From Aquisalimonas sp. (GTDB lineage: Bacteria > Pseudomonadota > Gammaproteobacteria > Nitrococcales > Aquisalimonadaceae), in assembly GCF_007120195.1 (NCBI RefSeq), contig NZ_SKOG01000142.1, positions 1 through 52,996 on the forward strand: a DNA stretch of 52,996 nucleotides, read 5' to 3'. The position numbers were made by a program, and so were the translations under genes. Numbering within the stretch: position 1 is the stretch's first letter; each line of letters begins with the position of its first letter. A model generated the notes under the pieces. That model did no database searches, was not told the DNA's origin, and saw only the letters and a program-made list of their open reading frames with translations. This document shows positions 1,462 through 37,690 of this stretch, piece after piece.

Positions 1462-1489
1462 CGACAATGACAATCCCCGGAGGTTGCCG

Positions 1490-3994: not shown

Positions 3995-4018
3995 GCACGA
4001 TAACGGAGGAGTTGCAAC

Positions 4019-4768
4019 ATGGCTAAGTGGGGAATGGTCATTGACCTGGACAAATGCACCGGATGCCAGGCCTGCACGACGGCGTGCGCCATGGAGAACG
4101 ACACCCTGCCCGGCGAGAGCTGGCAGGACGTGCTGTTCTACAACGAGGGTGAGTACCCGAGCGCACAGATGAAGTGGCTGCCGCGGCCGTGCATGCAGTG
4201 CGAGGATCCCTCCTGCGTGCACGTCTGCCCGACCCGGGCCACCTACAAGGACGAGGACGCCGGCGGCATCGTGTTCGTGGACTGGAACAAGTGCATCGGC
4301 TGCAAGTACTGCATGATTGCCTGCCCGTACGGGGTGCGCTTCTTCGCCGACGAGCAGCCCCTGGTGGAGCCGGACATCCGCGACACCTACCCCGGCGAGA
4401 ACGGCCAGATGTGGAGCCCGCCCTACCAGAACCCGGAGCAGGACTGGCGCCGGGGCATCGGCATCCAGCCCAAGGGCGTGGTCTCCAAGTGCACCTTCTG
4501 CTACCACAAGGTCAGCAAGGCCCCCGAGGGCGTCGCGGACCTGGACGAGGACGATCCGGAACTCAAGGAGTACGTGCCCGCTTGCGTGCGCACCTGTGCG
4601 CCCAAGGCCCGCTTCTTCGGCGACCTGGACAACCCGGAATCCAACGTCAACCGGCTCATCGCCGACAAGAAGGGGGCGCGGCTGCTCGACCACACGGGGA
4701 ACCGTCCGCAGGTCTACTACCTGGGTGCCGGCGCCAGTATTCCGGCCTTCCGCCCACGCGAATCCTGA
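4019..4768 (+). CDS. arxB: 4Fe-4S electron-transfer subunit of the Arx-type oxidoreductase
   Basis: 249 aa, with a GGAGG-containing ribosome site just upstream. It has the four-cluster layout of the DmsB/PsrB/TtrB family: CTGCQACTTAC (residues 15-25), CMQCEDPSCVHVCP (about 59-72), CIGCKYCMIACP (about 92-103), and a last set split between CTFC (about 160) and CVRTCAP (about 193). It lacks its own signal peptide, as expected for a subunit co-exported with the Tat-signal catalytic partner. It lies 24 bases after arxA and 15 before arxC, and should carry electrons between the molybdenum site and the membrane quinone subunit. Confidence 0.8.
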   Translation: MAKWGMVIDLDKCTGCQACTTACAMENDTLPGESWQDVLFYNEGEYPSAQMKWLPRPCMQCEDPSCVHVCPTRATYKDEDAGGIVFVDWNKCIGCKYCMIACPYGVRFFADEQPLVEPDIRDTYPGENGQMWSPPYQNPEQDWRRGIGIQPKGVVSKCTFCYHKVSKAPEGVADLDEDDPELKEYVPACVRTCAPKARFFGDLDNPESNVNRLIADKKGARLLDHTGNRPQVYYLGAGASIPAFRPRES

Positions 4769-4783
4769 AGGGGGTAAGCGGAC

Positions 4784-5980
4784 ATGTCCGACAACAACAT
4801 CATGAAGGGCGGGCCGGGTACCGGCCTGCTGATCCTCTCCGCCGTCGTGCTGGTGGTCTCCTTCGGCTATGTCATGTTCCAGCTCATGACCGTGGGCCAT
4901 GCGGCATTCAACGTGAGCTCCAAGCTCCCCTGGGGCCAGCCCATCTCCACGTACCTCTACTTCGCCCTGGCCTCGTCCGGGCTGGGCCTGATCGCATCGC
5001 TGCCGCTGGTCTTCGGCTTCAAGCAGTATTACGGCATCGCCAAGCGGGCAATCTTCCTGGCCTTCATCATCCTGATCTCCGGCATGGCGGTGCTGGCGCT
5101 GGAGCTGGGTCACACCTTCCGCATGCTCTGGGCGATCCCGTTCAACATGCAGATCCAGTCCGCCATGTTCTGGATGGGCGTCTTCTACGCCGCGGATCTG
5201 CTGTTCCTGCTGTGGAAGTTCCAGAAAATGGAAGCTGGCGACTGGGACAGCAGGAACACGAAGATCATCGGCATCGCCTCGTTCCTGGGCGTGCTGCTCG
5301 CGAGCGGCAACCTGGCGCTGATCTTCGGCATGATGAGTATGCGGCCGTTCTGGTACGATGGCTCCCTGCCCATCTACTTTTACCTCACCGCGATCACCAG
5401 CGGCATGGCGGCCCTGGTGTTCTTCACCTATCTGGCCTACGGCTTCACTCGCAGCAACATGCCGGAGAAACTGCAGATTGTCTTTACCGGGGGCCTGCCC
5501 AAGCTGTTCGCCACTGTCCTCGGGTTGACCATCCTGTTCGTGACCGTGCGTGCGATCACCGGGCTCTACGCCAACAACCCCGAGGTCTACCACGTCTGGG
5601 CGGACTACCTGTTCGCCTCGCCGCTGTACATCCTCTCGCTGGTGTTCGGCCTGCTGCTGCCCTTCGCCCTGATGATGTCGGCCAAATTGCGCGTCAATCC
5701 GCAGATACAGATCCTGGTGGCGGTGCTGACCTTCGGCGGTCTGTTCGCCGAGCGCTACTACTTCGTCGTGGGCGGTCAGGTCATTCCCCTTTTTCAGGGC
5801 ACGTGGGCCTGGGATATGCTCCAGTACACACCGTCGGTCACAGAGTGGGCGCTGACCATCATGGGCGCGGCCATGATGTTCACCCTCTACGTGCTGGGCG
5901 AGAAGTATTTCGATCTGTCTGCCGCCCCGCAATTGGAAAGGGCCCCGCGAACGGCGGAGCCCCGCCAGGCGACAGCATGA
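4784..5980 (+). CDS. arxC: NrfD/PsrC-type membrane subunit (quinone-reacting)
   Basis: 398 aa, strongly hydrophobic with roughly eight to ten membrane segments from residue 14 (GLLILSAVVLVVSFGYV) to about residue 380. The C-terminus is short, soluble and Ala/Glu/Arg-rich. The family (NrfD/PsrC) has no haem and exchanges electrons with quinone at the periplasmic side of the membrane. Here it would anchor the ArxAB pair and reduce quinone during arsenite oxidation. It follows arxB by 15 bases. Whether the flow is to quinone (oxidase) or from quinone (reductase) cannot be read from this subunit. Confidence 0.8.
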   Translation: MSDNNIMKGGPGTGLLILSAVVLVVSFGYVMFQLMTVGHAAFNVSSKLPWGQPISTYLYFALASSGLGLIASLPLVFGFKQYYGIAKRAIFLAFIILISGMAVLALELGHTFRMLWAIPFNMQIQSAMFWMGVFYAADLLFLLWKFQKMEAGDWDSRNTKIIGIASFLGVLLASGNLALIFGMMSMRPFWYDGSLPIYFYLTAITSGMAALVFFTYLAYGFTRSNMPEKLQIVFTGGLPKLFATVLGLTILFVTVRAITGLYANNPEVYHVWADYLFASPLYILSLVFGLLLPFALMMSAKLRVNPQIQILVAVLTFGGLFAERYYFVVGGQVIPLFQGTWAWDMLQYTPSVTEWALTIMGAAMMFTLYVLGEKYFDLSAAPQLERAPRTAEPRQATA

Positions 5981-24071: not shown

Positions 24072-24594
24072 CTATTGCGGTAACCGTAAACACGTGCCAT
24101 CCATCGAATGCACGTAATCCTGCTCGCCTAGGTACGCACCGTCTGTGCGACAGCCGCCATATCAGGGCGCATCTTCACGCCACACACATGGCTGCCATTT
24201 GACTCCCAGATCCCCTCTTGCTAGCTTTCTACGCCTTGCAGCAGGTGTCCCGGCCGTTGTCATACGGTGGATCGGGATGAAACGGGAAGTCGGTACCGGC
24301 CCGCCCCACGGCACGTGGCCATAATCCGACGCTGCCCCCGCAACGGTGTTTGAGTCAACGGCGCCCAATCAGCCACTGTGCCAGCGGTACGGGAAGGCGG
24401 TCGCCGAGAAATGCACGCCATTTCGCTCATCAGCCCGTAGACCGGCCTGCTGTGATGCCGCGCGTTGCGGAGGGCAACGCTCAGGCCGGCCGGACCACTT
24501 CCCTGACCCTGCCAGCCTGTCCGTCTCCTGCGCGCGCCACCACTCGATAACCACAACACAAGCCGTGCGGGTGGCACGGTCAAAGGGGACAACC
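24072..24594. other. Leader region of the btuB operon
   Basis: About 520 bases between the sigma relic and btuB. The first ~165 bases hold no recognised feature. A cobalamin riboswitch occupies 24239-24452, followed by about 140 bases to the btuB start where the expression platform must lie. Confidence 0.6.
24239..24452 (+). ncRNA. Cobalamin (B12) riboswitch
   Basis: Family landmarks occur in order: GGGAAGTCGGT (24284-24294), GACGCTGCCCCCGCAACGGT (around 24328-24347), CAGCCACTG (24370-24378), CGGGAAGGCGG (24390-24400) and the B12 box AGCCCGTAGACCGGCC (24432-24447). The closing stem P1 pairs CAGCAGG (24239-24245) with CCTGCTG (24446-24452). In the family, adenosylcobalamin binding lowers expression. 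The downstream gene is btuB, followed by nine coupled genes. Confidence 0.92.
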
Positions 24595-26394
24595 ATGCAC
24601 GTGTGCACACCCGGCAGGGCCGCCCTGGCGGCGGCATGCCTGATTCCTGCCCACGCCAGCGGCGATGGCCAGGCGATCCAACTCAACCCGGTCGTTGTCA
24701 CGCCGACGCTTTCAACCCAGACGGTTGATGCAAGCCTGAGTTCCGTCACGGTCATCGATCGTGAGACCCTCGACCGCCAGCAGCCGCGGGAGCTCGCCGA
24801 CGCATTGCGCGGGCGACCGGGCGTTGATCATACCTCCAGCGGCTCGTTCGGCAAGAACACCAGTGTTTTCACCCGTGGCACGGGCAGCGAGTCCACGGTC
24901 CTGCTGATCGACGGTATCCGCGTGCGCTCCGCAACCACCGGCTCCGCCCCGTGGCAGTTCATCCCACCCCAGCTGCTCGATCGCGTGGAAGTCGTTCGCG
25001 GCCCCCGGAGCAGTCTCTATGGGGCGGACGCCGTCGGCGGCGTCGTTCAGGGATTTACCCCGGACGGGCGGGATCGGGACGCGCACTGGATTCAGGGCGG
25101 CGCCGGCTCCTTTGGTTCCCACGAATACGGTGCCGGTGTCGCTGGCAGCAGCGGTGGTACGTCCTGGAGCCTGGGGGCGAACCATTTCCACACCGACGGC
25201 ACGCAGATCCGCGAGGACGGCGAGGACAAGGGGTTCCATAACACATCCGGCGTTGGCCGCATCACCCACGCGTTCGACGGTGGCCTGGAGCTGGGCCTGC
25301 TCGGTTTCCGGGCCCAGGGCAATACCGAGTTCGACGGCGGGGACACGGATTTCGTCACCCAGACCGTCGGCGCCACCGCCGGCGTGCCGGTGACCGAACG
25401 GTGGCTTGCCCGGCTGCAGGTGAGCGAGGGCCGGGACGAACAGGAAACGTCGGGCGACTTCGGAGTCTCCATCTTCGACACCCGCACCCGCACGGCGCGC
25501 CTGGAGAACTCTCTCACTCACGGCAGCAACGAGCTGATCGTGGGCGGGGAGTTCCAGCGAGACGAAGTGGACAGTACCACCGAGTTCGCAGAGGACCGGC
25601 GCGATAACCGCGCGGCCTTCGGCCAGTACCTGGTCACAGGTGGGGGCGCGGACATCCAGTTCAGTGCGCGTTTCGACAGTAACGAGGCCTTCGGGGACCA
25701 CGTGACGGGGGCGGTGGCCATCGGCCAGCAGCTCGATGCCTGGCACCGTGTGCGTCTGAGCTACGGCACGGCCTTCCGCGCGCCGACCTTCAACGACCTC
25801 TACACGCCGGATCTCGGCTTTTTCGAGGGCAATCCGGATCTGTCACCGGAGAAGTCGCAGACTGCGGAGCTTGGGTTCCGCGGCCAGTATGGGGCCGGGT
25901 ACTGGGACGTTGCGCTGTTTCAGACCTACGTCGACGACCTGATCCAGAACCAGTCAGACCCCGAAGGTGTGCTGCGCCCCGAGAATGTGGATCGCGCCCG
26001 CATGCAGGGCGTGGAGCTGGGTGCGGGGGCGCGGCTGGGTGCTTGGGAGCTCGCCAGCAGTGCCTCACTCATCGACCCCCGGGATCGTGACACCGGCAAT
26101 CGGCTCGCCCGCCGCTCCACCGCCAGTGCCAGGCTCGACATTGACCGCTCTCTCGGCCATTTTTCCGTCGGCGCCTCGGGGGTCGCCCAGGGAGATCGGT
26201 ATAACGATGCCGACAACGAAGAGCGGCTCTCCGGTTTCGGCCTGGTGAATCTGCGCGCAGGCTGGGCGTTTGCCCGACATTGGTCCACGCAGCTCACGGT
26301 CGACAACGTATTCGACAGGGACTACGAGACCGTCGGCGGTTTCAAAAACGCCGGCCGCAACGCCTTCCTGAGCGTGCGCTACGGGAATCGATGA
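24595..26394 (+). CDS. btuB: TonB-dependent vitamin B12 outer-membrane receptor
   Basis: 599 aa. The start at 24595 has AAAGGGGA upstream and a signal peptide ending near ...AHASG. A TonB box-like NPVVVTPT is at residues 31-38, followed by the plug domain (VTVIDRETLDRQQPRELADA, DRVEVVRGPRSSLYGADAVGG). The barrel ends in ...FLSVRYGNR. It binds corrinoids and moves them to the periplasm using TonB energy. It is first under the B12 riboswitch, and its stop overlaps the start of the CobN-like gene (ATGATG). Confidence 0.92.
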   Translation: MHVCTPGRAALAAACLIPAHASGDGQAIQLNPVVVTPTLSTQTVDASLSSVTVIDRETLDRQQPRELADALRGRPGVDHTSSGSFGKNTSVFTRGTGSESTVLLIDGIRVRSATTGSAPWQFIPPQLLDRVEVVRGPRSSLYGADAVGGVVQGFTPDGRDRDAHWIQGGAGSFGSHEYGAGVAGSSGGTSWSLGANHFHTDGTQIREDGEDKGFHNTSGVGRITHAFDGGLELGLLGFRAQGNTEFDGGDTDFVTQTVGATAGVPVTERWLARLQVSEGRDEQETSGDFGVSIFDTRTRTARLENSLTHGSNELIVGGEFQRDEVDSTTEFAEDRRDNRAAFGQYLVTGGGADIQFSARFDSNEAFGDHVTGAVAIGQQLDAWHRVRLSYGTAFRAPTFNDLYTPDLGFFEGNPDLSPEKSQTAELGFRGQYGAGYWDVALFQTYVDDLIQNQSDPEGVLRPENVDRARMQGVELGAGARLGAWELASSASLIDPRDRDTGNRLARRSTASARLDIDRSLGHFSVGASGVAQGDRYNDADNEERLSGFGLVNLRAGWAFARHWSTQLTVDNVFDRDYETVGGFKNAGRNAFLSVRYGNR

Positions 26395-29300
26395 TGTTGC
26401 GCCTGGCCTTGTCTTGCCTGCTGCTGATACCGGCCGTCGCCTCCGCGGGCACTGTGTTTGGCATTGTCTCCGAGCGCTCCGCCGCCGAGGTGGCGGCGGG
26501 GGCGCACGCGTTTCTCGACGCCTACCCGGATCACGCCGTCGTGCTGCGCACCCCGGAGCAGCTGGCGGGCAAGTCCGACGGCGAAGTGGCGTCGCTGTGG
26601 CAGGAGGCGGACGCCATCTTCCTGGCCGCCGTGTTCGACGATCAGGTCGGGCGGCTGGCACGCCTGCTGCGCCAGCAACCTCCCGGCGCCGATGTGCCCG
26701 TCCTGGCCATGAACAGCGACCGCCGCATCACCCGGCTGTCGCGGCTGGGTGGTGAGTTCGTGCTGGAGAACCTGTCGGACGCAGCCATCACCGAGCTGTC
26801 GGCTAACCCTGACCCCGGCGAGGACCCGCAGAAACACCTGAGCGCGCTGCGGGCACAGTTCCCGGAGCAGGATGCCTGGCTGGTGGGTCGTGCCTTCTAT
26901 CAGGGGCGTAGCCCGGAGCACATTGCGGGCATGTTGCGCTGGCTGCTGGCGCAGGCCGGGCACGGCGTCGACGTGCCGCAGCCGGCACGCCGGGAGACCG
27001 TGCGCTACTACCGCCATGGCGAAGTGCGTGCCGACCCGCAGGCCATGGAACTGGAGGAGGGGCCGGCCGTGGCGCTGCTCGATCTGGACTCCGGCGATCG
27101 TCCAGGCGACCGCGCCCTGCTGGATGCCGCCTGCGCGGCGCTCGAAGAGCGGGGTATCCAGTGCTTCGCGGTATTGGCCCGCTGGGGCGGGGCCAGTGTG
27201 GAGGCCGTGGTCACCCTGGCGCGGCGCGCGGCGCCCGCCTCCCTGGCCGGGGTGGTCAGCCTGCAGGATTTCACGGTCGGCGGCGGCGAGGGCCGGCGGG
27301 AGGTTACCGAAGCCTTCGGCGAGCTGGATGTCCCCGTGGTCAAGGGCATCCGCCTAAGCGACCTCAGCAAACCGCAGTGGCAGTTCTCGGAGGCGGGCAT
27401 TCCCTGGGATGCCGTGCACTACCAGCTGGCCATGCCTGAACTCCAGGGCGTCAGCCAGCCCATGGTGCTCTCCGTGGCGCAGCCCTCGGAGACCGACGAC
27501 GCCACCGGTGTGCGGCTGACACTCACCCGGCCGGTTGACGAGCGCGTCGCCGCCCTGACGGACCGCATGGAGCGCTGGAGGCGCTTGCAGCAGCTCGATA
27601 ACGCCGACAAGCGCGTGGCGCTGGTCTACTACAACCACCCGCCCGGGCGGCACAACGTGGGCGCAGACAAGCTGGATGTCCCGGAATCCCTGTTCGAGAT
27701 GCTCCAGCAGCTCAAGGCGGCGGGCTACGAGACCGGCGCGTTGCCGGAGGACGCCGAGGCTCTGCATGACAAAATCCAGGACCGCGGGATCAATTTGCCG
27801 GATAGCCGTTCGGGGCTCGAGGACCTGGCGGGCAGGGTGCCGTCGCTGTCCGAACCGTCCTACCTGGCCTATTTCGCCAGCCTGCCGGGGGTGATCCGGG
27901 CGGAGCTGCAGCACGGCCCCGTGGGTTATTTGCACGCGCGCTTGCTCGGCGCCAAGGAGCAGGATCACCAGACGCTGGCGCAAGGGCTGCTGGACCGGGG
28001 TCTCGGTGACCTCCGGCACATGCTCGAGAACCACGAGCACGCGTCCCAGCGCCGGGCTCTGGACCTGCTGCGGCAGTATCGGCACGGCTGGGAGGAGCTG
28101 CTCCAGCGCGGCGGAGACACCGATGGCGTCAGCGCTCTGCGTGATGCCCTGATCCGCACAGGCATCCCCGGTCTCACTGGCTGGGGTGAGGCGCCGGGCG
28201 AGGCCATGGTGAGCGATGGCGCGATGGTGTTCCCAGGGCTGCGTTTCGGCAATGTCTTCATCGGTCCGCAGCCGCCGCGGGGCTGGGAAGTGAGCGAGGC
28301 GCTGCTGCACGCCAATACCACCTTCCCGCCCACGCACCACTACGTGGGCTTCTATCACTGGCTACGCGATCATTTCGAGGCCGACGCCCTGGTCTACGTG
28401 GGCCGGCACTCCACCCGCGAGTTTCTGCCCCGCAGGCGCGCCGGGCTGGCCGGTGACGACTACCCGGAGCTGCTGGGTGCCGACCTGCCGGTGATCTACC
28501 CCTACATCGTCGACGGCGTGGGTGAGGGCATCCAGGCCAAGCGCCGCTCCATGGGCGTGATCGTGAGCCACCTGACCCCGCCGCTGGAGACCACGGAGCT
28601 CTATGACGACCTGCTGGAGCTGCGCCAGCTGGTGGAGACGTTCGAGTCGGCCACGGATCCTGAGTCGCCCGCCCGCGCGCGGGCGGTGGACACGCTCCGG
28701 GAGCGCATCGCGGCGCTGGATCTCAGCGACGAGATTGAGCACGAGCACGAGCTCGAGCACGGACACCATCACCACGGCGCGCGCCACGAGGACGCTCAAG
28801 GCGACGACCATCACCACGCCAGCGAGTCGGATCATCAGCACGCGGATGACGCGCTCGGAGGCCTGGCCGACGTTGACGATGAACTGCTTGTCCACGAGGT
28901 GGGCCACTACGTGACCCAAATGCAGGAGCAGTTCATGCCCATCGGCCTGCACGTGTTCGGGCGTGACTGGAAGGACGACGCCATCGAGACCATGCTTGGC
29001 TCCATGGCGGGCGACGATGAACCGGAGCCCCAGTGGCGCGACGACCTGGCCGGGTCGCCGGGGAACGAGATGGCAAACTTCCTGGCTGCGCTGGAGGGGC
29101 GTTTCATACCGCCCGCCCGGGGCAACGACCCGGTGCGCACACCGGGCGTGCTTCCCACCGGCCGCAACTTCCACGCCCTCTCCGGGGACCTGGTGCCCAC
29201 CCGCGTGGCCTGGTCCCTGGGTCAGGCGATGGCGGCCGCCGCCCGTGACCGGGGCGACCCGCAGGCGCAGGGCAGCGAGGCCATCGTGCTCTGGGCTTCC

Positions 29301-30785
29301 GACACCGTGCGTGACGAGGGCGTCATGGTTGCCTTCGGGCTGGACATGCTCGGGGTGCGCCCGCGGTGGAACTCCCGCGGCATCGTCGAAGGCCTGGAGC
29401 GTATGCCGCTGGAGGATCGCGGGCGCCGGCGCGATGCGCTGTTCACCACCTCGGGGCTGTTTCGGGATCTCTACGAGGATCAGCTCGTGTGGCTGGACCA
29501 GGCCGTGCGCCTGGCCCTGGACGGTGCCTCCGAGACCATCCGCGCGCAGCACCCGCAGCTCGCCCGGGCATTGGACGAAGCGCTGCGCACGCTGCCCGAG
29601 GACTGGCGCGATCCGGGTGACGAATCCCTGGCGGACAACCATGTGGCGGCCCGCTGGGTGGCGGACACCCGCGAACTCGTGGACAACGGCGCGGCGCTCG
29701 AGGAGGCCGGTCGCGACGCCGCCCTGCGTGTGTTCGGCACGGCCCCCGGGGCCTATGGTGCCGGGGTGAACCGGCTGGCGGAGCGCTCCGGTGCCTGGGA
29801 GGAGCGCAGCGAAGTGGCCGCCGCCTACCTGCGCCGCATGGGCCACGCCTACGGCAGTGAGGCCAGCGGCGAGCCGGCCCATGCTGCCTTCGAGGCGCGC
29901 CTGCAGTCCGTGGGCCGCACCTACCTGGGCCGTGCCAGTCACGTCTACGGGTTGCTGGACAACGACGACGGCTTCGATTTCCAGGGCGGACTGTCCCTGG
30001 CCGTGGAATCCCTCACCGGGGAGGCGCCGGACAACCGGGTGCTCATGCACGCCGACGTGGACAACCCGCGGGTGGAGTCCCTGCATCGGGCCCTCCTCGG
30101 AGAGCTGCGCCGGCAGAATCTGAACCCCCAATGGCTCGAGCCGCTCATGGACCACGGCTATGCCGGTGCGCGCACCATGGGCGCCGACTTTCTCGATAAC
30201 CTTTGGGGCTGGCAGGTCACCAGCCCGGACGTGGTGCGCTCCTGGGCGTGGGACGCGGTCCACGACGTCTACTTCCAGGACAGCCACGGCATCGGGCTGG
30301 ACGCCTTCCTGGAAAAGGACCACAACGTACACGTGAAGATGCACATGCAGGCCATCACCCTGGTGGCCGCGCACCGGGAATTCTGGGACGCGGGCGACCA
30401 CGTCATCGATGCCCAGGCCCGGGAGTTCGCCGAGCTGGTGGTCGAGCACGGTCTGCCCGGCGGCGGCCACACCAGGCCGGATCATCCCACCATGGACTGG
30501 GTGGCGGATCGCCTGGACGACGCCGACCTGGCCCAGGGCTTCGATGGCGTGCGCGCCGCGGCACAGATGGGTCTTGCCGAGCAGGCCATGGATCCGGCCA
30601 CCGTCGCGGCAGTGGATATCACCGACGCGCCGGCCGAGGCGACCGGGGATGCAGCCGAGGAGCAGGCGGAGGACCACGCCGGCGGGCAGGCCGTCGAGGG
30701 CGGGCGCGTGCTGCTGCCGTGGCTTGTGTTGGGGGCTGCGGTGTTGCTGCTTGGTGGCGGGATCTACGCGGGGCGGCGGTATTAA
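26391..30785 (+). CDS. Exported CobN-like cobaltochelatase-family protein with His-rich insert and membrane anchor
   Basis: 1464 aa from ATG 26391 (or 26394). The CobN/H-subunit chelatase fold is recognised from VAWSLGQAMAAAARDRGDPQ, ASDTVRDEGVMVAFGLDMLGVRPRW-type text and HSTREFLPRR, YIVDGVGEGIQAKRR. Unlike cytoplasmic CobN it has a signal peptide (residues 2-20, LALSCLLLIPAVASAG), a His-rich insert near residues 782-820 and a C-terminal membrane segment with a short basic tail (LVLGAAVLLLGGGIYAGRRY), which place the body in the periplasm. No CobS/CobT or ChlI/ChlD ATPase partner is nearby; instead ExbB-like and DUF2149 genes follow. It may insert, remove or handle metal or corrinoid outside the cytoplasm. 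True CobN of the aerobic pathway is the less likely alternative. Confidence 0.8.
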   Translation: MMLRLALSCLLLIPAVASAGTVFGIVSERSAAEVAAGAHAFLDAYPDHAVVLRTPEQLAGKSDGEVASLWQEADAIFLAAVFDDQVGRLARLLRQQPPGADVPVLAMNSDRRITRLSRLGGEFVLENLSDAAITELSANPDPGEDPQKHLSALRAQFPEQDAWLVGRAFYQGRSPEHIAGMLRWLLAQAGHGVDVPQPARRETVRYYRHGEVRADPQAMELEEGPAVALLDLDSGDRPGDRALLDAACAALEERGIQCFAVLARWGGASVEAVVTLARRAAPASLAGVVSLQDFTVGGGEGRREVTEAFGELDVPVVKGIRLSDLSKPQWQFSEAGIPWDAVHYQLAMPELQGVSQPMVLSVAQPSETDDATGVRLTLTRPVDERVAALTDRMERWRRLQQLDNADKRVALVYYNHPPGRHNVGADKLDVPESLFEMLQQLKAAGYETGALPEDAEALHDKIQDRGINLPDSRSGLEDLAGRVPSLSEPSYLAYFASLPGVIRAELQHGPVGYLHARLLGAKEQDHQTLAQGLLDRGLGDLRHMLENHEHASQRRALDLLRQYRHGWEELLQRGGDTDGVSALRDALIRTGIPGLTGWGEAPGEAMVSDGAMVFPGLRFGNVFIGPQPPRGWEVSEALLHANTTFPPTHHYVGFYHWLRDHFEADALVYVGRHSTREFLPRRRAGLAGDDYPELLGADLPVIYPYIVDGVGEGIQAKRRSMGVIVSHLTPPLETTELYDDLLELRQLVETFESATDPESPARARAVDTLRERIAALDLSDEIEHEHELEHGHHHHGARHEDAQGDDHHHASESDHQHADDALGGLADVDDELLVHEVGHYVTQMQEQFMPIGLHVFGRDWKDDAIETMLGSMAGDDEPEPQWRDDLAGSPGNEMANFLAALEGRFIPPARGNDPVRTPGVLPTGRNFHALSGDLVPTRVAWSLGQAMAAAARDRGDPQAQGSEAIVLWASDTVRDEGVMVAFGLDMLGVRPRWNSRGIVEGLERMPLEDRGRRRDALFTTSGLFRDLYEDQLVWLDQAVRLALDGASETIRAQHPQLARALDEALRTLPEDWRDPGDESLADNHVAARWVADTRELVDNGAALEEAGRDAALRVFGTAPGAYGAGVNRLAERSGAWEERSEVAAAYLRRMGHAYGSEASGEPAHAAFEARLQSVGRTYLGRASHVYGLLDNDDGFDFQGGLSLAVESLTGEAPDNRVLMHADVDNPRVESLHRALLGELRRQNLNPQWLEPLMDHGYAGARTMGADFLDNLWGWQVTSPDVVRSWAWDAVHDVYFQDSHGIGLDAFLEKDHNVHVKMHMQAITLVAAHREFWDAGDHVIDAQAREFAELVVEHGLPGGGHTRPDHPTMDWVADRLDDADLAQGFDGVRAAAQMGLAEQAMDPATVAAVDITDAPAEATGDAAEEQAEDHAGGQAVEGGRVLLPWLVLGAAVLLLGGGIYAGRRY
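28736..28851 (+). other. His/Glu/Asp-rich segment in the CobN-like protein
   Basis: Encodes alternating His-acidic residues (EHEHELEHGHHHHG, then DDHHHASESDHQHADD). Typical of low-complexity Co/Ni/Zn-binding loops in metal-handling proteins. It lies between the N-terminal and C-terminal CobN blocks. Confidence 0.8.
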
Positions 30786-30808
30786 CACGCGCAACGACGA
30801 GGTGAACG

Positions 30809-31252
30809 ATGTTCACATCGGCAACGCTGGACATCATGGACGCGGTGGTCGGCTGGCTCCTGGAGCCGGTGATCATTTCACTGCTGGCGCTGGTGGCACT
30901 GGCCCTCTGGGAGCTGGGTTTGGCGCTCGGGGAACGCACCGGCGGCGTGCGGCGCATGGAAGCCAACGGCGATGCCGCCGCCGTGGCACGGCGCGCGCAA
31001 CGGCGCATCGACCGTGCCGACCTGCTGGCCCGCGTCGGACCCATGCTTGGCCTCATGGGCACACTCATTCCGCTGGGTCCCGGGCTCGCGGCGCTGGGCC
31101 GGGGCGAACTCGATGTGCTGGCCCAGGCCGTCACCATCGCCTTCAATACCACGGTGCTGGGGCTGCTGGTGGGCATTCTCGGCTTTCTGATCGGCCGGTT
31201 GCGCCGGCGCTGGTATGACGCCGCAATGGCGCGGCTGGAGGGTGCGCCATGA
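30809..31252 (+). CDS. MotA/TolQ/ExbB-type proton channel protein
   Basis: 147 aa, three membrane segments (about residues 17-38, 70-90 and 112-134), shorter than ExbB. VGPMLGLMGTLIPLGPGL matches the ExbB/TolQ block APxLGLLGTVxG, and TIAFNTTVLGLLVGI matches the following TxxGLxVAI segment with its Thr residues. In the family this pairs with an ExbD/TolR protein to harvest proton-motive force. It sits 23 bases after the CobN-like gene and overlaps the DUF2149 gene by four bases. Confidence 0.8.
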   Translation: MFTSATLDIMDAVVGWLLEPVIISLLALVALALWELGLALGERTGGVRRMEANGDAAAVARRAQRRIDRADLLARVGPMLGLMGTLIPLGPGLAALGRGELDVLAQAVTIAFNTTVLGLLVGILGFLIGRLRRRWYDAAMARLEGAP

Positions 31253-31548
31253 CGGTGCCGTCTTACCGGCGCAGCCGCTTTGATGCCGGGGATGAGGAGC
31301 CCATGGGGCCGCTCGCCAACCTGGCGGACATCATGTTGGTGTTCGCCGTGGGTTTGATGGTGGCTTTGGCCGCGTCCGGGGGCGGCCGGGAGGAGTTCAG
31401 CCAGGGTGGAATCGATGTGGAAACCGGTGAGGAACTGCCGGACGTGCCCGCCGAGGCCGGGGAAGCGGGCAGCGGCTACGAGGCCGTGGGGCAGGTCTAC
31501 CGCGACCCGCAGACGGGGCGCATGGTGCTGATCGGGGGGGACGACTAA
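31249..31548 (+). CDS. DUF2149-like protein with ExbD-type membrane segment
   Basis: 99 aa. One membrane segment, LANLADIMLVFAVGLMVALA (about residues 22-41), is followed by a small periplasmic domain ending GQVYRDPQTGRMVLIGG. The D27-I-M-L-V run mirrors ExbD/TolR (LxDVMLV), where the Asp carries protons. I therefore read it as the ExbD-like half of a motor with the preceding gene. The start overlaps the ExbB-like stop (ATGA) and the stop overlaps btuF (TAATG). Confidence 0.75.
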   Translation: MTVPSYRRSRFDAGDEEPMGPLANLADIMLVFAVGLMVALAASGGGREEFSQGGIDVETGEELPDVPAEAGEAGSGYEAVGQVYRDPQTGRMVLIGGDD

Positions 31549-32453
31549 TGGCGACGAGACACCGCGTTCTGGCGGCCGTGATCGCCGGCGCCGTCGCCGG
31601 CGGTTTCGCCGGCTCGCCGGTGACGGCCGCCGAGCGCGCCTGCGTCACCGATGACGCCGACCGGGTGGTCTGCCTGGATACGCCCCCGGAGCGCATTATC
31701 GCCCTGTCCCCCGGCGCCACGGAGCTGCTGTTCGCAGCTGGCGCCGGTGAGCAGATCGTCGGCACCGTGAGCTACAGCGACTACCCGCCCGAGGCGAAAG
31801 ACATTCCCCGGGTTGGTAGTTACAAGCGGCTCGACATGGAAGTTCTGGTGGCAAAGCAGCCGGATCTGGTCGTCGGCTGGGTGAGCGGCAATCCCACGGA
31901 GCAGCTCGAGCGCATCGACGCGCTGGGTGTCACGCTGTACCTGTCCGAACCGCGGGATTTCGACGATGTCGCCACGACCCTGGAGCGCCTGGGCACCCTG
32001 GCGGACACCAGCGACCTGGCGCAGGCGCGCGCGCAGGCGTTTCGTGAGGAGATCGCCGCAATTCGCGAGGCCCATGGCGATGCGGACCCGGTGCGGGTGT
32101 TTTATCAGGTCTGGCCGGATCCGCTCATGACCATAAACGACGATCACCTGATCAGCCAGGCGGCGGCCCTGTGCGGCGGCGAGAACGTCTTCGGCGATTT
32201 GGCCAGCCTGACCCCGCGCATCGATGAGGAATCGGTGCTGGCGCGCGACCCGGAGGCCATCGTCGCCGGCGGCATGGGCGAAGCAGACGCGACCTGGCTG
32301 GACCCCTGGCGGCGGTTTGACAGCCTGGAGGCGGTGCGCAAGGACAACCTGTTTTTCGTGCCGCCGTCGAGCATCCAGCGGCCAACGCCGCGGCTCGTGG
32401 AGGGCAGCCGCCTGCTCTGCGAGCAGCTGGAGAGGGCCCGTGAGCGGCGCTGA
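31548..32453 (+). CDS. btuF: Periplasmic cobalamin-binding protein
   Basis: 301 aa. Signal peptide to about residue 28 (AVIAGAVAGGFAGSPVTAA). The BtuF-type fold is seen from ERIIALSPGATELLFAAGAG, VGTVSYSDYPPEAKDIPRVG, LVAKQPDLVVGW and the C-terminal half ending RPTPRLVEGSRLLCEQL. It takes cobalamin in the periplasm from BtuB to BtuCD. It overlaps btuC by 14 bases. Confidence 0.9.
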   Translation: MATRHRVLAAVIAGAVAGGFAGSPVTAAERACVTDDADRVVCLDTPPERIIALSPGATELLFAAGAGEQIVGTVSYSDYPPEAKDIPRVGSYKRLDMEVLVAKQPDLVVGWVSGNPTEQLERIDALGVTLYLSEPRDFDDVATTLERLGTLADTSDLAQARAQAFREEIAAIREAHGDADPVRVFYQVWPDPLMTINDDHLISQAAALCGGENVFGDLASLTPRIDEESVLARDPEAIVAGGMGEADATWLDPWRRFDSLEAVRKDNLFFVPPSSIQRPTPRLVEGSRLLCEQLERARERR

Positions 32454-33465
32454 GGGCGGCGTCTCGCCGGCAGCGGCGGCGCGCCCGGCCATCGGCTCCG
32501 GGCGGTTCGTGCCGCCGCTGCTCGCCCTGTTGTGCCTGGCCGTCACCTCCGTCCTGGTCGCCGTGGCCCTCGGCAGTGTCCGCGTGCCGCCCGCCGAGCT
32601 GTGGGCGGTGCTCACCGGCGACGGCTCGCCGCTGCACCGCACCCTGGTGCTGGAACTCCGCGCCCCACGCGCCCTGGCAGCCTTCGCCGTGGGCGGGCTG
32701 CTGGCGGTAGCCGGAGCGCTGATGCAGGTGCTTCTGCGTAACCCCCTGGCGGACCCCTACGTGCTGGGCCTCTCCGGCGGTGCCGCCGTGGGGGCGCTGG
32801 CCGCCATGCTCGCGGGGCTGGGCGCGGCGGTGGTCTCCGGCTTCGCCTTCGCCGGTGCGCTGCTGTCCACCGTGTTGGTTTTCGGCCTTGCCCACGGCAC
32901 CGGCAGCTGGACGCCCACGCGGCTCCTGCTCACCGGCGTCGTCGTGGCGGCCGGCTGGGGGGCGGTGATCACGTTCATGCTGGCGGTCGGGCCCACGGAA
33001 CGCTTGCCCGGCATGTTGTACTGGTTGATGGGGGATCTCACCTATGCGCGCACCCCCTGGGTGGCCTTTGCAGTGCTGGGGGCGGTGTGCGTGCTGGTGA
33101 TCCCCCTGGGGCGCAGCCTGAACGTGCTTGCGCGCGGGCCGCTGCAGGCCGCCGCCCTGGGGGTGCCCGTGCGCGCCCTGGAGTGGTCCATCTACGTCGG
33201 GGCCAGCCTGATTACCGCCGTGGCGGTGACCACGGCGGGTAGTATCGGTTTCGTCGGCCTTGTGGTGCCCCACATGCTGCGCCTGGTGCTGGGCAACGAC
33301 CAGCGTCTGATTCTGCCGGCCGCTGCCCTGGCCGGCGGCGCGCTGCTGGCGCTTGCCGATACCCTGGCGCGCACCATGATCGCCCCGGAGCAGCTGCCCG
33401 TGGGCGTCATCACCGCGCTGCTCGGCGTGCCCACGTTCCTGTACCTGCTGTACCGGAGCCGCTGA
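32440..33465 (+). CDS. btuC: Cobalamin ABC transporter permease
   Basis: 341 aa from GTG 32440, preceded by GGAGAGG and overlapping the end of btuF. FecCD-family permease with about ten membrane segments. Family blocks are RAPRALAAFAVGGLLAVAGALMQ-type text near residue 70, NPLADPYVLGLSGGAAVGA (about 101-119) and GSIGFVGLVVPHMLR (about 267-281), the loop contacting BtuD. The stop overlaps the btuD start (TGATG). Hemin or siderophore permeases are paralogues, but the locus points to cobalamin. Confidence 0.88.
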   Translation: MSGAEGGVSPAAAARPAIGSGRFVPPLLALLCLAVTSVLVAVALGSVRVPPAELWAVLTGDGSPLHRTLVLELRAPRALAAFAVGGLLAVAGALMQVLLRNPLADPYVLGLSGGAAVGALAAMLAGLGAAVVSGFAFAGALLSTVLVFGLAHGTGSWTPTRLLLTGVVVAAGWGAVITFMLAVGPTERLPGMLYWLMGDLTYARTPWVAFAVLGAVCVLVIPLGRSLNVLARGPLQAAALGVPVRALEWSIYVGASLITAVAVTTAGSIGFVGLVVPHMLRLVLGNDQRLILPAAALAGGALLALADTLARTMIAPEQLPVGVITALLGVPTFLYLLYRSR

Positions 33466-34283
33466 TGGCCGTGCTCGCGACCCAGGACCTGGTGATCGAT
33501 ATCCCGGGGCGCCCGGATGGCGCGCCGCTGGACCTCACGCTTGCGCCCGGGCAGATCTGGGGCGTGCTGGGCCCCAACGGAGCCGGCAAGACGACGTTGC
33601 TGCACACCCTGGCCGGCCTGCGTGCGGCCCGGCGTGGTGCGGTGACCCTGGACGGGCAACCACTCCGGCAGTTGCGGCGCAAGCGCGTCGCAAGGGCCCT
33701 GGCCGTCGTGTTCCAGGAGCGCCAGGACGGTTTCCCGGCCACCGTGCTGGAGACCGTGCTCATCGGCCGGCACCCGTACCTGGCGCCCTGGGATATGGAA
33801 ACGGCGGACGACCTGGCAATTGCCCGGGGCGCGCTTGAGTGCATGGAGCTTGCATCCCTGGAGCCGCGGCTGGTCAACACACTCTCCGGCGGCGAGCGTC
33901 AGCGCGTGGCCATTGCCACGGCTTTGGCGCAAACGCCGGAGTTCTGGCTTGCGGATGAGCCGACCAATCACCTGGATCTGCGCCACCAGGTCTGCGTCAT
34001 GGAGCTGTTGCGTACGCAGGCGCAGGCCCAGCGCGGGGTGTTGCTCTGCCTCCACGACATCAACCTGGCGGCGCGCTGGTGCGATCACGTGCTGCTGCTC
34101 TACCCCGACGGCGAGGCCTGTTGGGGGCCCTCGGGCACCATGCTGGTGCCCGAGGCCCTGGAGCGGCTCTACCAGCAGCCGCTGGCACGCACCGAGTTGG
34201 ACGGCGCCCAGGTATTCGTGCCTAAGGCAACGGGAGCGATCAAGCCCCCGCGGCCGGCTGCACACGGGAGACATAGCCAATGA
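33465..34283 (+). CDS. btuD: Cobalamin ABC transporter ATP-binding protein
   Basis: 272 aa. Walker A GPNGAGKT (residues 36-43), a Q-loop in VVFQERQDGF, the signature LSGGERQRVAIA, Walker B FWLADEPTNHLDL and the switch His in LLCLHDINLA. It powers BtuC. It overlaps cobB by four bases (ATGA), linking uptake to intracellular corrinoid processing. Confidence 0.9.
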   Translation: MAVLATQDLVIDIPGRPDGAPLDLTLAPGQIWGVLGPNGAGKTTLLHTLAGLRAARRGAVTLDGQPLRQLRRKRVARALAVVFQERQDGFPATVLETVLIGRHPYLAPWDMETADDLAIARGALECMELASLEPRLVNTLSGGERQRVAIATALAQTPEFWLADEPTNHLDLRHQVCVMELLRTQAQAQRGVLLCLHDINLAARWCDHVLLLYPDGEACWGPSGTMLVPEALERLYQQPLARTELDGAQVFVPKATGAIKPPRPAAHGRHSQ

Positions 34284-35617
34284 CAGATGCACCCATAACG
34301 CCCCGGGGCACCGCCCCGGCAGTCCTGATCAGCGCCCCCGCCTCCGGCTCCGGCAAGTCAATGATGACCGCGGCGCTGGCGCGGCTTCACCGCAATGCCG
34401 GTCGCGACGTGCGGGTGTTCAAGTACGGCCCGGATTACCTCGATCCCATGGTGCTTGAGACGGCCTCCGGCAACCCGGTCTACCAGCTCCACCCCTGGAT
34501 GACCGGCATGGACGAATGCCGCTGGCGCCTGGCCCGCGCCGCCGCCACAGCGGACCTGGTGCTGGTGGAAGGGTCCATGGGCCTGTTCGATGGTGATCCG
34601 GCCACCGCCGACCTCGCCGCGGCCGCCGGCATTCCGGTTGTGCCCGTGATCGATGCCGCCGGCATGGCACAGACCCTTGCCGCAGTGGCCCTGGGGCTGG
34701 ATCAGTACCGCGACGATGTCTGCCTCGCGGGCGTCATCGCCAACCGCGTGGGCAGTGCGGGGCATGGCCGCATGCTTGCCGAGGCCCTGCCGGAGCGCCT
34801 GCCGCTCCTTGGCGCGGTGCCGCGGGATGATGCCATGAGCATCCCCGACCGGCACCTGGGATTGGTGCAGGCCGGTGAACTCCCGGACCTGGACCGGCGC
34901 CTTGATGCCGCGGCCGAACTGCTGCGCGAGGCCGGTCTGGATGCATTGCCGGCGAGCGTGACACTGGCCGGGGAACCGCCGCCGAAGCCGCCGCGGCTGC
35001 TCGACGGGGCGCGCATTGCCGTCGCCAGGGACGCCGCCTTTGCCTTCATCTATCGCGCCAACCTCGAGCTGCTCGAGGCCATGGGGGCAGACCTGCGGGA
35101 ATTCTCGCCCTTGGCCGACCAGGCCCTGCCCGCGTGCGATGCCCTGTGGCTGCCCGGTGGTTACCCGGAGCTGCACGCCCGGCAGCTGGCGGACAATCTG
35201 CCCATGCTGCTCGCCATCCGCTCCCACCACGCCGCGGGCAAACCCATCCTGGCGGAGTGCGGCGGGCTGATGGCCTGCATGGACACGCTGGTCGACGGCG
35301 ATGGCAAAGCCCACCGCATGCTGGGACTCTTGCCCGGACAGGCGGCCATGGCCGGGAAGCTGATGGGCCTTGGGCTGCAGTCCCTGGCGCTGCCGGGCGG
35401 CGAGCTGCGCGGGCATACCTTCCATCACTCGCGCCTGGAGGCGGAGCTCGAGCCCGTGGCCCGCACACGCCGCCACCGTGGCGGGACACCGGGTGAGGCC
35501 ATCTACCGCGATGGCGCTCTCACCGCCAGCTACTACCATGCCTACTTCCCGTCCGCGCCGGCGGCCACCGCCGCCCTGTTCCGCGGGACAGCATTGGAGG
35601 AGATCGGCCATGCGTGA
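34280..35617 (+). CDS. cobB: Cobyrinate a,c-diamide synthase
   Basis: 445 aa (also called cbiA). P-loop APASGSGKSMM near residues 19-29, VFKYGPDYLDPMVLE (substrate region), VEGSMGLFDG, and a C-terminal class I glutamine amidotransferase domain with nucleophile C327 in LAECGGLMACMD. It amidates carboxyls a and c of cobyrinate. Without ring-synthesis genes in the window it could also serve salvage of incomplete corrinoids. It overlaps cobO by eight bases. Confidence 0.92.
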   Translation: MTDAPITPRGTAPAVLISAPASGSGKSMMTAALARLHRNAGRDVRVFKYGPDYLDPMVLETASGNPVYQLHPWMTGMDECRWRLARAAATADLVLVEGSMGLFDGDPATADLAAAAGIPVVPVIDAAGMAQTLAAVALGLDQYRDDVCLAGVIANRVGSAGHGRMLAEALPERLPLLGAVPRDDAMSIPDRHLGLVQAGELPDLDRRLDAAAELLREAGLDALPASVTLAGEPPPKPPRLLDGARIAVARDAAFAFIYRANLELLEAMGADLREFSPLADQALPACDALWLPGGYPELHARQLADNLPMLLAIRSHHAAGKPILAECGGLMACMDTLVDGDGKAHRMLGLLPGQAAMAGKLMGLGLQSLALPGGELRGHTFHHSRLEAELEPVARTRRHRGGTPGEAIYRDGALTASYYHAYFPSAPAATAALFRGTALEEIGHA

Positions 35618-36221
35618 AAACGCCAAGGATCCGGACCGTCATGCCGCGCGCATGGCGAAGAAAAAACGCGCCATCGACGAGCGCATTGCCCGTGCCCAGG
35701 CGGACAAGGGCGTGCTGGTGGTTCTCACTGGCCCCGGCAAGGGCAAGAGCAGCTCCGGCTTCGGCATGGTTGCCCGCGCCCTGGGTCATGGCATGCAGGT
35801 GGGTATCGTGCAGTTCATCAAGGGCGCGTTCGTCACCGGCGAGGACCGCTTCTTCCGCGGCCACCCCAATGTCACCTACCACGTCATGGGGGAAGGCTAC
35901 ACCTGGGACACCCAGGACCGCACCCGGGATGAGGAGGCCGCCCGTGCCGCCTGGGACAAGGCCGTGGCCATGCTTCGGGAACCCGCCTACGGCCTGGTGC
36001 TCCTGGACGAGCTGAACATCGCCCTGCGCTACGAATACCTGGACCTCGACCGCGTCCTGGATGACCTTCTGGCTCGTCCCGCCATGCAGCACGTAGTGGT
36101 TACCGGCCGCAACGCCAAGCGGGAACTCATTGACATCGCCGACACGGTGACGGAGATGAGCGTCGAGAAGCACGCCTTCAAAGACGGTGGCGTGCGGGCG
36201 CAGAAAGGCGTCGAGCTGTAG
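35610..36221 (+). CDS. cobO: Corrinoid adenosyltransferase
   Basis: 203 aa. The start at 35610 follows GGAGGAGATCGGCC. P-loop [15 protein letters not shown] at residues 40-54, with family blocks [17 protein letters not shown]-like text, [14 protein letters not shown] and [13 protein letters not shown]. It transfers the adenosyl group from ATP to cob(I)yrinate diamide and other corrinoids (CobA/BtuR type). It lies in the riboswitch-led unit between cobB and cobQ. Confidence 0.92.
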
Positions 36222-36238: not shown

Positions 36239-37690
36239 ATGGCCACACTGATGATCCAGGGCACCACATCCGACGCCGGCAAGAGCACGGTGGTGGCCGC
36301 GCTGTGCCGGTGGCTCGCGCGCAAGGGTGTGTCGGTGGCGCCGTTCAAGCCCCAGAATATGGCGCTGAACAGCGCCGTGACCGTCGACGGTGGCGAGATC
36401 GGCCGCTCCACGGCACTGCAGGCCCTGGCCTGCGGCATCGCCCCGCACAGCGACATGAACCCGGTGCTGCTCAAACCCCAGAGTGACCGCGGTGCCCAGG
36501 TCATCCTGCGGGGTCATGTGTACGGCAACATGGATGCGGTCGCCTACCACCGCTTCAAGGCCAGCGCGCGCGAGGCGGTCATGGCGGCCTGGGAGAGTCT
36601 GACAGCCCGCTTTGATGCGGTCATCGCCGAAGGTGCGGGCAGCCCGGCAGAGGTCAATCTGCGCGAGCACGACATCGCCAACATGGGCTTTGCCGAGGCC
36701 GCCGACTGCCCGGTGTTGCTGGTGGGTGACATCGATCGCGGTGGCGTCTTCGCCCAGCTGGTGGGCACGCTCGCGCTGGTCTCCGGCAGCGAGCGCGCGC
36801 GAATCCGTGGCTTCGTGATCAACCGATTTCGCGGTGACCCGGCCCTGCTCGAGAGCGGCCTGGACTGGCTCGAGGCGCGCACGGGGACGCCGGTGGTCGG
36901 CGTGCTCCCGTTCCTCCCGGGCCTGGTGCTGGACGCCGAAGACAGCATCGGGCGCGCCGGCAGCGGCGGCGGCGAGGGCGCGCTGCGCGTCGTCGTCCCC
37001 GCTTTGCCGCGCATGAGCAACCACACCGATTTCGACCCGCTGCGCCTGCATCCGCAGGTGGATCTGCAATTCATCGGCCCGCATCAGTCGCCGCCGCCGG
37101 CGGATCTCATCATACTGCCCGGCAGCAAGAGCACCCGCGGGGATCTCACCTGGTTGCGCGACCACGGCTGGGAGCAGGTGTTGCAGCGGCATTTACGCTA
37201 TGGCGGCCGGGTACTGGGCATCTGCGGCGGCTACCAGATGCTCGGGCGCAGCGTCGCCGATCCGGACGGTATTGAGGGCGAGTCGGGCACGACCCCGGGA
37301 TTCGCGCTGCTGGATCTGGAGACACGCCTGATCGCCGGCAAGCGGCTGCGTGAGGTGACGGGCACGCTGGAACCCGAGGGGGCGGTTTTACGCGGCTACG
37401 AGATCCACAATGGGGTCACCACCGGAGCGGCCTTGAGTCGCCCCCTGCTGCGGCTCGATGGCCGAGTGGACGGTGCCGTGAGCGGGGACGCCCAGGTGTT
37501 CGGCTGTTACGTACACGGCTTGTTCGACCAACCGGATGCGGCCAATGCCCTGCTGGCCCGCGCCGGGCTTGTCGGCGGCGAGGCGGTGGATTACCCGGCC
37601 CACCGCGAGGCCGAGTTGGACCGCCTGGCGGATGCGGTGGAGGCCCACCTCGATCCCGCGTGGTTGCAGGAGGTGTTGACGGTGGGGTAG
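36239..37690 (+). CDS. cobQ: Cobyric acid synthase
   Basis: 483 aa (cbiP). N-terminal synthetase domain with [19 protein letters not shown] (residues 8-26) and [13 protein letters not shown], then the amidotransferase domain with [11 protein letters not shown] and nucleophile C329 in [11 protein letters not shown]-terminal YVHGLFD. It amidates four carboxyls of adenosylcobyrinate a,c-diamide. It is the last gene of the riboswitch-led unit; convergent speE ends 28 bases later. The short gap holds the 10-base palindrome GCAGCGCTGC but no clear terminator. Confidence 0.93.

Follow-up and report, generated by a model that had tools for sequence, protein, structure and literature searches.

Bacteroides thetaiotaomicron HmuS, the closest described relative of the protein considered here, is an exported class I chelatase that removes iron from heme (PMC12583661). 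Its operon, hmuYRSTUV, combines the chelatase fold, a signal peptide, and a C-terminal anchor with an ExbB-like protein (HmuU) and a DUF2149 protein (HmuV). Recombinant HmuS lacking the membrane regions and HmuU/V yielded 27 µM protoporphyrin from 20 µM enzyme and 200 µM heme in 30 min, required NADH, and stopped at 1-2 turnovers; in cell fractions, ATP neither replaced nor added to the NADH effect, and the membrane fraction was the more active, with about 80% conversion as against 36% in the soluble fraction (PMC12583661). The name BtuS, which goes with the idea of metalloporphyrin salvage, stems from Rodionov 2003 as cited in PMC6460266, and BtuS2 is the HmuS of B. fragilis (PMC13227078). 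A related locus, centered on a CobN-like protein under cobalamin control, lies in Aquisalimonas sp. (GCF_007120195.1, a genome listed as 100% complete) at positions 1 to 52,996 of contig NZ_SKOG01000142.1; this whole stretch of 52,996 nucleotides is called the window.

Other systems resemble the locus in part. Pseudomonas aeruginosa PA1922-PA1925 comprises, by annotation, the same four components (TonB-dependent receptor, CobN, ExbB, and DUF2149) but is controlled by Zur (PMC9431628, PMC4542158), whereas the window operon stands behind a cobalamin riboswitch. Cytoplasmic CobN and ChlH share fold and cavity with the window protein, including, in most CobN proteins, an aspartate at the position of HmuS His1209; they differ in being cytoplasmic, driven by AAA+ partners (CobST or ChlID), and part of ring biosynthesis. 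With ExbB-ExbD-TonB, TolQRA, and MotAB the locus shares an ExbB-type channel, a membrane aspartate in the small subunit, and a singly anchored periplasmic client, but here the client would be a C-terminally anchored enzyme, and DUF2149 has no demonstrable ExbD domain. ExbB/TolQ/MotA motors drive receptors, envelope upkeep, and motility, and we know of none driving an enzyme apart from the Zorya defence system, in which ZorAB is linked to effector proteins.

We propose that the window encodes a periplasmic class I chelatase tethered to the membrane by a C-terminal helix. An ExbB-type channel and DUF2149 would form a dedicated proton-driven motor for it and stand in for the AAA+ ATPase (ChlID or CobST) that works with cytoplasmic CobN and ChlH. 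The motor would act on the anchored enzyme via a flexible linker, by a pull or a twist, and so reset it between rounds (opening and closing, product release). Taken as motor plus chelatase plus corrinoid, with the direction of the reaction left open, this reading is assigned a probability of about 0.6. Computation revealed a predicted export signal, an anchor, co-occurrence of the genes, no detected ATPase partner, B12 control, no ring-synthesis markers, and the cassette in archaea without a detected TonB receptor; from these we infer physical coupling, a role of the motor in turnover, and a corrinoid substrate. Proton-driven catalysis by CobN-ExbB-DUF2149 is a hypothesis. Earlier papers already describe the exported CobN clade, the activity of HmuS, and the resemblance of HmuU/HmuV to ExbB/ExbD, and the remark in the initial annotation that no function had been assigned to such neighbourhoods is outdated by HmuS as a heme iron remover (PMC12583661). 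A corrinoid-dedicated CobN-like subfamily with a motor, an archaeal test of the TonB assignment, and the mutual exclusivity of motor and ATPase partner were not found in the open-licence papers searched, nor was any statement there that ExbB/DUF2149 acts on CobN or HmuS.

The predicted exported CobN-like protein and its putative motor genes

The operon runs on the + strand in the order riboswitch, btuB-like, cobN-like, exbB-like, DUF2149, btuF-, btuC-, and btuD-like, cobB, cobO, cobQ. Its first part contains the following features:

24226-24464, + strand: cobalamin riboswitch aptamer RF00174 (103.5 bits, full model 1-189), 5′ of btuB
24595-26394, + strand: BtuB-like TonB-dependent receptor (PF00593, 3.8e-46; start inferred as the first ATG past the riboswitch)
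26391-30785, + strand: CobN-family protein, predicted to be exported and C-terminally anchored (PF02514, 1.6e-235; 1,464 aa)
26391-26447, + strand: predicted signal peptide, residues 1-19 (sequence by eye plus hydropathy)
28407-28409, + strand: His673, equivalent of catalytic HmuS His538 (kept in 11/11 window-type proteins)
28737-28850, + strand: histidine-rich loop, residues 783-820 (disordered in the model)
29967-29969, + strand: Asp1193, a histidine in HmuS and ChlH (Asp also in most aligned cytoplasmic CobN)
30711-30779, + strand: predicted C-terminal transmembrane anchor, residues 1441-1463 (helix in the model)
30809-31252, + strand: ExbB/HmuU-like proton-channel subunit (PF01618, 8.5e-10; 38.9 bits, cut-off 22.9)
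31249-31548, + strand: DUF2149/HmuV-like protein (PF09919, 3.1e-9)

The riboswitch upstream of btuB was absent from the initial annotation; since the listed btuB open reading frame (24346-26394) overlaps it, the ATG at 24595 was taken as the start. Overlaps of 4 nt occur between btuB and cobN and between exbB and DUF2149, and of 1 nt between DUF2149 and btuF. The motor genes had been described as following cobN directly with overlaps: adjacency and the exbB/DUF2149 overlap hold, but cobN and exbB are separated by a gap of 23 nt.

PF02514 is the single Pfam match of the CobN-like protein. Its N-terminus (MMLRLALSCLLLIPAVASA/GT) is predicted by eye and hydropathy to be a Sec signal peptide. In an AlphaFold model of residues 300-1464 (mean predicted local distance difference test score 81.7), a disordered linker follows the body and leads into one terminal helix, 1441-1463. 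The proposed signal peptide and anchor are thereby upheld, and both are conserved across the clade, archaea included; a C-terminal hydrophobic helix was found, by a threshold of our own, in 61 of the 62 complete exported homologues of the 80-locus set described below. A glycine near the anchor end (79/87) was not used, being too common in transmembrane helices. The body of the model superimposes equally well on Mycobacterium tuberculosis (Mtb) CobN (Z 33.3, root-mean-square deviation 2.6, 852 residues) and on HmuS (Z 32.5-32.7, deviation 2.6-3.0, 880-914 residues), while the top sequence match in the PDB is HmuS (9D26, 6.4e-102).

His673 and the common cavity motifs are kept in all 11 window-type proteins. 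The HmuS motif LSLDHxxEFMGG is replaced by LLDNDDGFDFQGG, with Asp at the His1209 position in 11/11 window-type proteins, and the HmuS His254 column holds D, N, or G in all 11 as opposed to H in three aligned HmuS, although the neck alignment is less sure than that of the body. Judged by sequence, the active site is CobN-like in carrying Asp at the HmuS His1209 position. As a crude measure of the methionine-rich insertion that HmuS has in domain IV, methionine density is <=7 per 100 aa in the window type and also low (8 and 9) in two of three HmuS comparators. Membership in HmuS was ruled out by the motif and the His254 column, and the locus gave no match to the HmuT model; in place of the hmu arrangement, the operon has a B12 riboswitch and BtuB-BtuFCD. 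The protein belongs to the known, thinly studied HmuS/BtuS de-chelatase clade without being HmuS. The 38-residue histidine-rich loop, in domain IV, occurs only in the window protein among the 11 of its type and is a possible metal store; as a counterpart of the HmuS insertion it was dropped, since it is missing in 10/11 relatives.

The ExbB-like protein keeps the GPMLGLMGTLIP motif, the core of the ExbB family alignment. The DUF2149 protein matches PF09919 only, with no ExbD (PF02472) match; its model contains one confident helix, residues 20-46, which carries Asp27, and is otherwise poor. Asp27 is invariant in 22/22 aligned proteins, and 104 of 109 DUF2149 frames have Asp at its place by pattern; inspection of the remaining five by eye found Asp in L060 and L157 and Glu in Runella (L070), L083 being masked and L119 in the wrong frame. 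A looser recount giving 108 Asp was set aside because it admits chance matches.

A proposed motor in place of an ATPase partner

HmuS shows no ATP dependence. In the Aquisalimonas genome no ATPase partner was detected: there is no PF06213 (CobT) match and the best TIGR02442 (ChlID-type) value is 1.7e-6, CobS not having been searched separately. The class was represented by 274 genomes, 18 of them with DUF2149 and 35 with PF02514. All 18 DUF2149 places have PF02514 on the same contig, <=4.0 kb away (Fisher 7e-19, overstated because the genomes are related). A ChlID-type partner, defined as a TIGR02442 match at E<=1e-80 (our own threshold, as the curated cut-off is passed by just one of the 35), occurs in 0/18 DUF2149 genomes (best 3.3e-13) as compared with 16/17 genomes whose CobN/ChlH lacks a DUF2149 neighbour (Fisher 4e-9, overstated for the same reason). 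The sole partnerless genome among these 17 is 58% complete, and about five of the 17 motor-less CobN/ChlH are probably bacteriochlorophyll BchH, judging from split partner genes. A second DUF2149 group in this search is presumably made up of PA1922-1925 relatives, another subfamily. The absence of a CobST/ChlID partner assumed in the initial annotation is therefore corroborated in the Aquisalimonas genome for CobT and ChlID, as is the pairing of CobN with the motor genes that a neighbourhood survey was expected to reveal. For Geobacter lovleyi, it had been noted that CobST is missing beside such a CobN (PMC3403914).

It is very improbable that signal and anchor were misread and that the window protein is an ordinary CobN served by a distant ATPase. 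The PF02514 match and the annotation of relatives as cobaltochelatase in public plasmid records would suit this explanation, but the whole clade, archaea included, retains the C-terminal helix and an N-terminus resembling a signal peptide, no ChlID or CobT was found in the Aquisalimonas genome, and the CobN equivalog model TIGR02257 scores 487.1 bits, below its cut-off of 822.05. An ordinary cytoplasmic CobN was ruled out by the export signals, the lack of a detected ATPase partner, and the lack of ring markers.

To follow the cassette more widely, named genomes were scanned by a pattern centered on the ExbB alignment, which favours loci of this ExbB type, with protein models built here from few sequences. 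From at least 597 stretches 80 loci were kept, unthinned (L122 and L124 come from one genome, and L139 and L140 look nearly alike). DUF2149 adjoins ExbB in all 80; CobN is present in 72 (on the same strand in 72, with a gap <=500 bp in 62), a TonB receptor in 57, DUF2162 in 30, TonB_C in 11, and canonical ExbD in 3. The btuB-cobN-exbB-DUF2149 neighbourhood, described in the initial annotation as recurrent, thus does recur. For 108 loci in all, the counts are CobN 99, receptor 81, and TonB_C 16, and no frame matched two of the CobN, ExbB, DUF2149, DUF2162, and receptor models, i.e., no gene fusions were seen among them. In a tree, 88 sequences classed as exported form one clade against 21 cytoplasmic CobN/ChlH (local support 0.975). 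The 11 sequences of the window type, the others being 47-61% identical to the window protein, constitute a clade of their own and the deepest branch among the exported ones; the window protein is thus placed apart from BtuS2/HmuS in a comparison that did not include BtuS1.

A side observation concerns 14 of 57 further exported CobN relatives in which the column of the catalytic His holds another residue (Gln in 9, Asn in 4, and a doubtfully aligned Phe in 1; L122-L125, L129, L133, L135, L139, L140, L142, L147, L148, L153, L158). Their cavity motifs are altered while the motor genes are kept; going by these residues, they may represent a non-catalytic or different-ligand subfamily, Sphingobium SYK-6 included. 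Furthermore, a Spirosoma plasmid (L173) carries a compact cobB-cobN-ChlID-cobQ cluster with no ring genes in the fetched 11 kb, which might be an ATP-driven equivalent of the corrin finishing discussed below.

TonB or the chelatase as the possible client of the motor

HmuU/HmuV have been drawn as serving the receptor HmuR (PMC12583661, PMC10100974). If this published assignment extends to the window, ExbB-like and DUF2149 would be an extra ExbB/ExbD pair energising TonB for the BtuB-like receptor, and the exported CobN would be uncoupled from energy. A TonB-dependent receptor accompanies the cassette in 81/108 loci, and tonB resides inside some operons (btuB-tonB-cobN-exbB-DUF2149 in L062; tonB-DUF2162-exbB-DUF2149-cobN in L084 and L086). 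On the other hand, TonB_C is found in just 16/108 loci, and in three window-type genomes (G236, G121, G155) the cassette follows its own riboswitch with no btuB between. The Aquisalimonas genome has separate canonical sets, namely two ExbD-ExbD-TonB loci, a lone tonB, and an apparent Tol locus; none of its five ExbD places lies in the window, and its four TonB_C places are all on other contigs. In Trichlorobacter, ExbB-ExbD-TonB even stands directly beside the cassette. Deletion of exbB3 (SLG_10800) in Sphingobium SYK-6 left growth on, and conversion of, the tested lignin aromatics unreduced (PMC8599685); exbB3 is probably the exbB of L158, as judged by position only, the cassette's own substrate was outside that experiment, and the L158 CobN has no catalytic His.

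The archaea bear most directly on this question. Eleven of the 80 loci are from ANME-1, Methanothrix/Methanosaeta/Methanotrichaceae, Methanosarcinales, and Methanophagales records. Five of them (L144, L146, L149, L151, L160) unite CobN, DUF2162, ExbB, and DUF2149 in one stretch, and the CobN proteins of these five have a signal and an anchor too. PF02514 is present in 10/11 archaeal genomes, whereas the TonB-receptor barrel PF00593 was found in 0/11 by the same search that yielded many in 2/2 Acidobacteria; in the control Methanosarcina acetivorans, DUF2149 and PF02514 were matched, and TonB_C, ExbD, and PF00593 were not. Since these archaea have no outer membrane, a TonB energiser would be purposeless. 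The archaeal motor, then, must serve something other than a TonB receptor, with the anchored chelatase as the most likely client, although the data may also be compatible with DUF2162 as the client or, in bacteria, with shared use by TonB. It is mainly because archaea without TonB receptors keep the cassette that the chelatase is preferred as the client of the motor, and we regard service to TonB alone as somewhat unlikely. The archaeal genomes G276, G278, G283, and G284 contain several CobN-family frames each, some of >1,500 codons and up to 1,932, which hints, at the level of sequence, that the family of exported chelatases has expanded in methanogens.

Several points nevertheless weigh against a motor-driven chelatase. 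CobT (PF06213) matches occur in 6/35 genomes, three non-motor and three motor, the latter (G143, G089, and, below cut-off, G140) with the CobT match and cobN on separate contigs. In six of the 11 archaeal loci, several of them on short contigs, and in two of the 80 loci (Acidobacteria L119 and L156), the retrieved stretch shows ExbB-DUF2149 but no CobN. Of the 16 loci with TonB_C, 11 have no canonical ExbD, so that some bacteria may use the motor for TonB. Profile comparison by hhalign of DUF2149 with ExbD was not significant (probability 2.9%, though Asp aligns with Asp); the ExbD-like character ascribed to the DUF2149 membrane segment is therefore retained for the membrane Asp and its motif, while DUF2149 as a provable ExbD homologue is unsupported. 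Metal insertion into corrins in the periplasm would need a supply of metal-free or wrong-metal corrins, which is hypothetical. The chemistry of HmuS is independent of the motor for 1-2 turnovers, contrary to a strict need for it; its low turnover is also given other possible explanations by the authors (PMC12583661), and protoporphyrin was still formed by B. fragilis mutated in both btuS1 and btuS2 (PMC6460266).

Conversely, an exported CobN without motor genes is found on a plasmid of Marinobacter sp. M3C. It encodes a window-type CobN (61% identity, signal peptide) in a btuB-btuFCD-cobB-cobN-cobO-cobQ-bluB arrangement, riboswitch included, but the C-terminal anchor, exbB, and DUF2149 are all missing; the chromosome was not searched. 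Neither tblastn of the window ExbB (limit 1e-3) nor a DUF2149 search (limit 1) found anything on this plasmid, the former excluding a close copy only, as it gave no match anywhere in the plasmid collection and missed even Trichlorobacter's distant ExbB. In this single case, which might be a decaying gene, anchor and motor are gone together.

With these points taken into account, the idea that proton-motive force replaces the AAA+ ATPase stands as the better reading insofar as the motor serves the chelatase, and is curtailed by the motor-free turnovers of HmuS, whose continuous turnover might need the motor. If true, it would correct the view in print that HmuU/HmuV serve the TonB receptor, offer a possible reason for the stalling of purified HmuS after one or two rounds, and provide a shared scheme for the extracytoplasmic release or loading of metals in complexes of heme, nickel, zinc, and B12. 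The same motor driving the chelatase in bacteria and archaea would define a proton-powered class of metabolic enzyme, and coupling, if proven, would establish a new kind of proton-driven enzyme.

Substrate and direction of the reaction

Downstream of DUF2149, the operon continues with genes for corrinoid uptake and finishing:

31548-32453, + strand: btuF-like periplasmic binding protein (PF01497, 3.3e-24)
32500-33465, + strand: btuC-like permease, start approximate (PF01032, 1.7e-82)
33465-34283, + strand: btuD-like ATPase (PF00005, 5.9e-31)
34280-35617, + strand: cobB, cobyrinate a,c-diamide synthase (NF002204, 426 bits, cut-off 254)
35610-36221, + strand: cobO, corrinoid adenosyltransferase, from in-frame ATG (TIGR00708, 208 bits, cut-off 168)
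36239-37690, + strand: cobQ, cobyric acid synthase (NF001989, 647 bits, cut-off 273)

The top NCBIfam model for the receptor is TIGR01779, at 474.9 bits below its cut-off of 599.7, and the cobalamin riboswitch supports its predicted cobalamin-type substrate. Such riboswitches are present in 8/10 window-type loci, in addition to Marinobacter. In a window-type locus without one (G143, L060:6962-9063), a signal-peptide CbiZ and a CN-hydrolase directly follow cobN-exbB-DUF2149. From their sequences, they apparently form a periplasmic set for corrinoid breakdown or remodelling, and again indicate a corrinoid substrate. Of the metal insertion or removal in corrinoids or tetrapyrroles initially envisaged, the corrinoid is thus very likely, given riboswitch and operon. 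The corrinoid would enter via the BtuB-like receptor, and the product would pass to BtuFCD and on to CobB/CobO/CobQ.

As to direction, neither CbiC/CobH nor CbiD was found in the Aquisalimonas genome, other ring genes not having been searched, and CbiC is absent in 7/10 window-type genomes; CbiC is needed in every corrin-ring pathway known to us. CobB is above cut-off in 7/10, including 4 of the 7 without CbiC. The absence of corrin-ring markers points to Aquisalimonas as a corrinoid salvager, for which stripping cobalt under B12 starvation would be self-defeating; insertion or exchange, making imported corrins usable, would fit better, also in view of the CobN-like active site. Speculatively, we lean towards metal insertion or exchange on imported corrins as the useful direction. 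In its boldest form, a proton-powered forward cobaltochelatase outside the cytoplasm would load cobalt into scavenged metal-free or wrong-metal unfinished corrins, to be finished by BtuFCD/CobB/CobO/CobQ, a scenario that we deem distinctly unlikely. A ring-less bacterium would then live on intermediates leaked by aerobic B12 makers and possess, as far as we know, the first metabolic enzyme with its catalytic cycle on an ExbB-type motor.

Two alternatives overlap the proposed motor-served chelatase as far as the motor is concerned. One is motor-driven removal, in which corrinoids or other complexes of cobalt would be stripped of it as a source of the metal, as HmuS does with heme iron. Apart from this precedent, sister operons look metal-harvest-like, as in the Zur-regulated PA1922-1925 (PMC9431628, PMC4542158) and the nickel contexts of Runella and Azospirillum, with nikR and hyp genes, and DUF2162, a "predicted transporter", is present in 30/80 loci. 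Cobalamin riboswitches occur in 5/8 selected metal-harvest-like loci, including 4/5 with DUF2162, and also in Trichlorobacter; moreover, a match to the HupE/UreJ permease model (64 bits) in L064, from the CbiC-positive ring maker G236, hints at a metal-uptake version. However, 7/10 window-type genomes lack CbiC and thus a ring to receive the cobalt, so that starved cells would destroy the vitamin they seek, and none of the DUF2162, HmuT, and HupE models (built from single or three sequences) matched in the window or in 8/9 related window-type loci. Removal is consequently regarded as rather doubtful. The other alternative, which we hold to be unlikely, is that the exported CobN no longer changes metals and acts as a motor-driven grabber, taking corrinoid off the receptor or a binding protein and delivering it to BtuF. 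Head and neck domains of class I chelatases have been likened to periplasmic binding proteins (PMC12583661), and the exported relatives without the catalytic-column His (14/57) suggest that some family members may bind without chelating, but retention of His673 and the cavity motifs in 11/11 window-type proteins speaks against it here.

Further loci illustrate the variety of regulation and context. In Runella (L070) and Azospirillum (L073), the cassette has hydrogenase maturation/urease accessory genes and nikR as neighbours, and a cobalamin riboswitch occupies L073:9429-9646; these cassettes are likely nickel or cobalt versions. Two successive cobalamin riboswitches precede the cassette receptor on Trichlorobacter pGLOV01 (L071:1708-2174), and two lie upstream at L107:2174-3864. 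In G256 (L061:10346-10476), a thiamine pyrophosphate riboswitch and a TonB receptor gene come after a window-type cassette without a cobalamin riboswitch. Elsewhere in the window, positions 304-5980 encode a respiratory enzyme set unrelated to the chelatase operon, made up of a molybdopterin oxidoreductase, an NrfD membrane subunit, and two Fe-S proteins.

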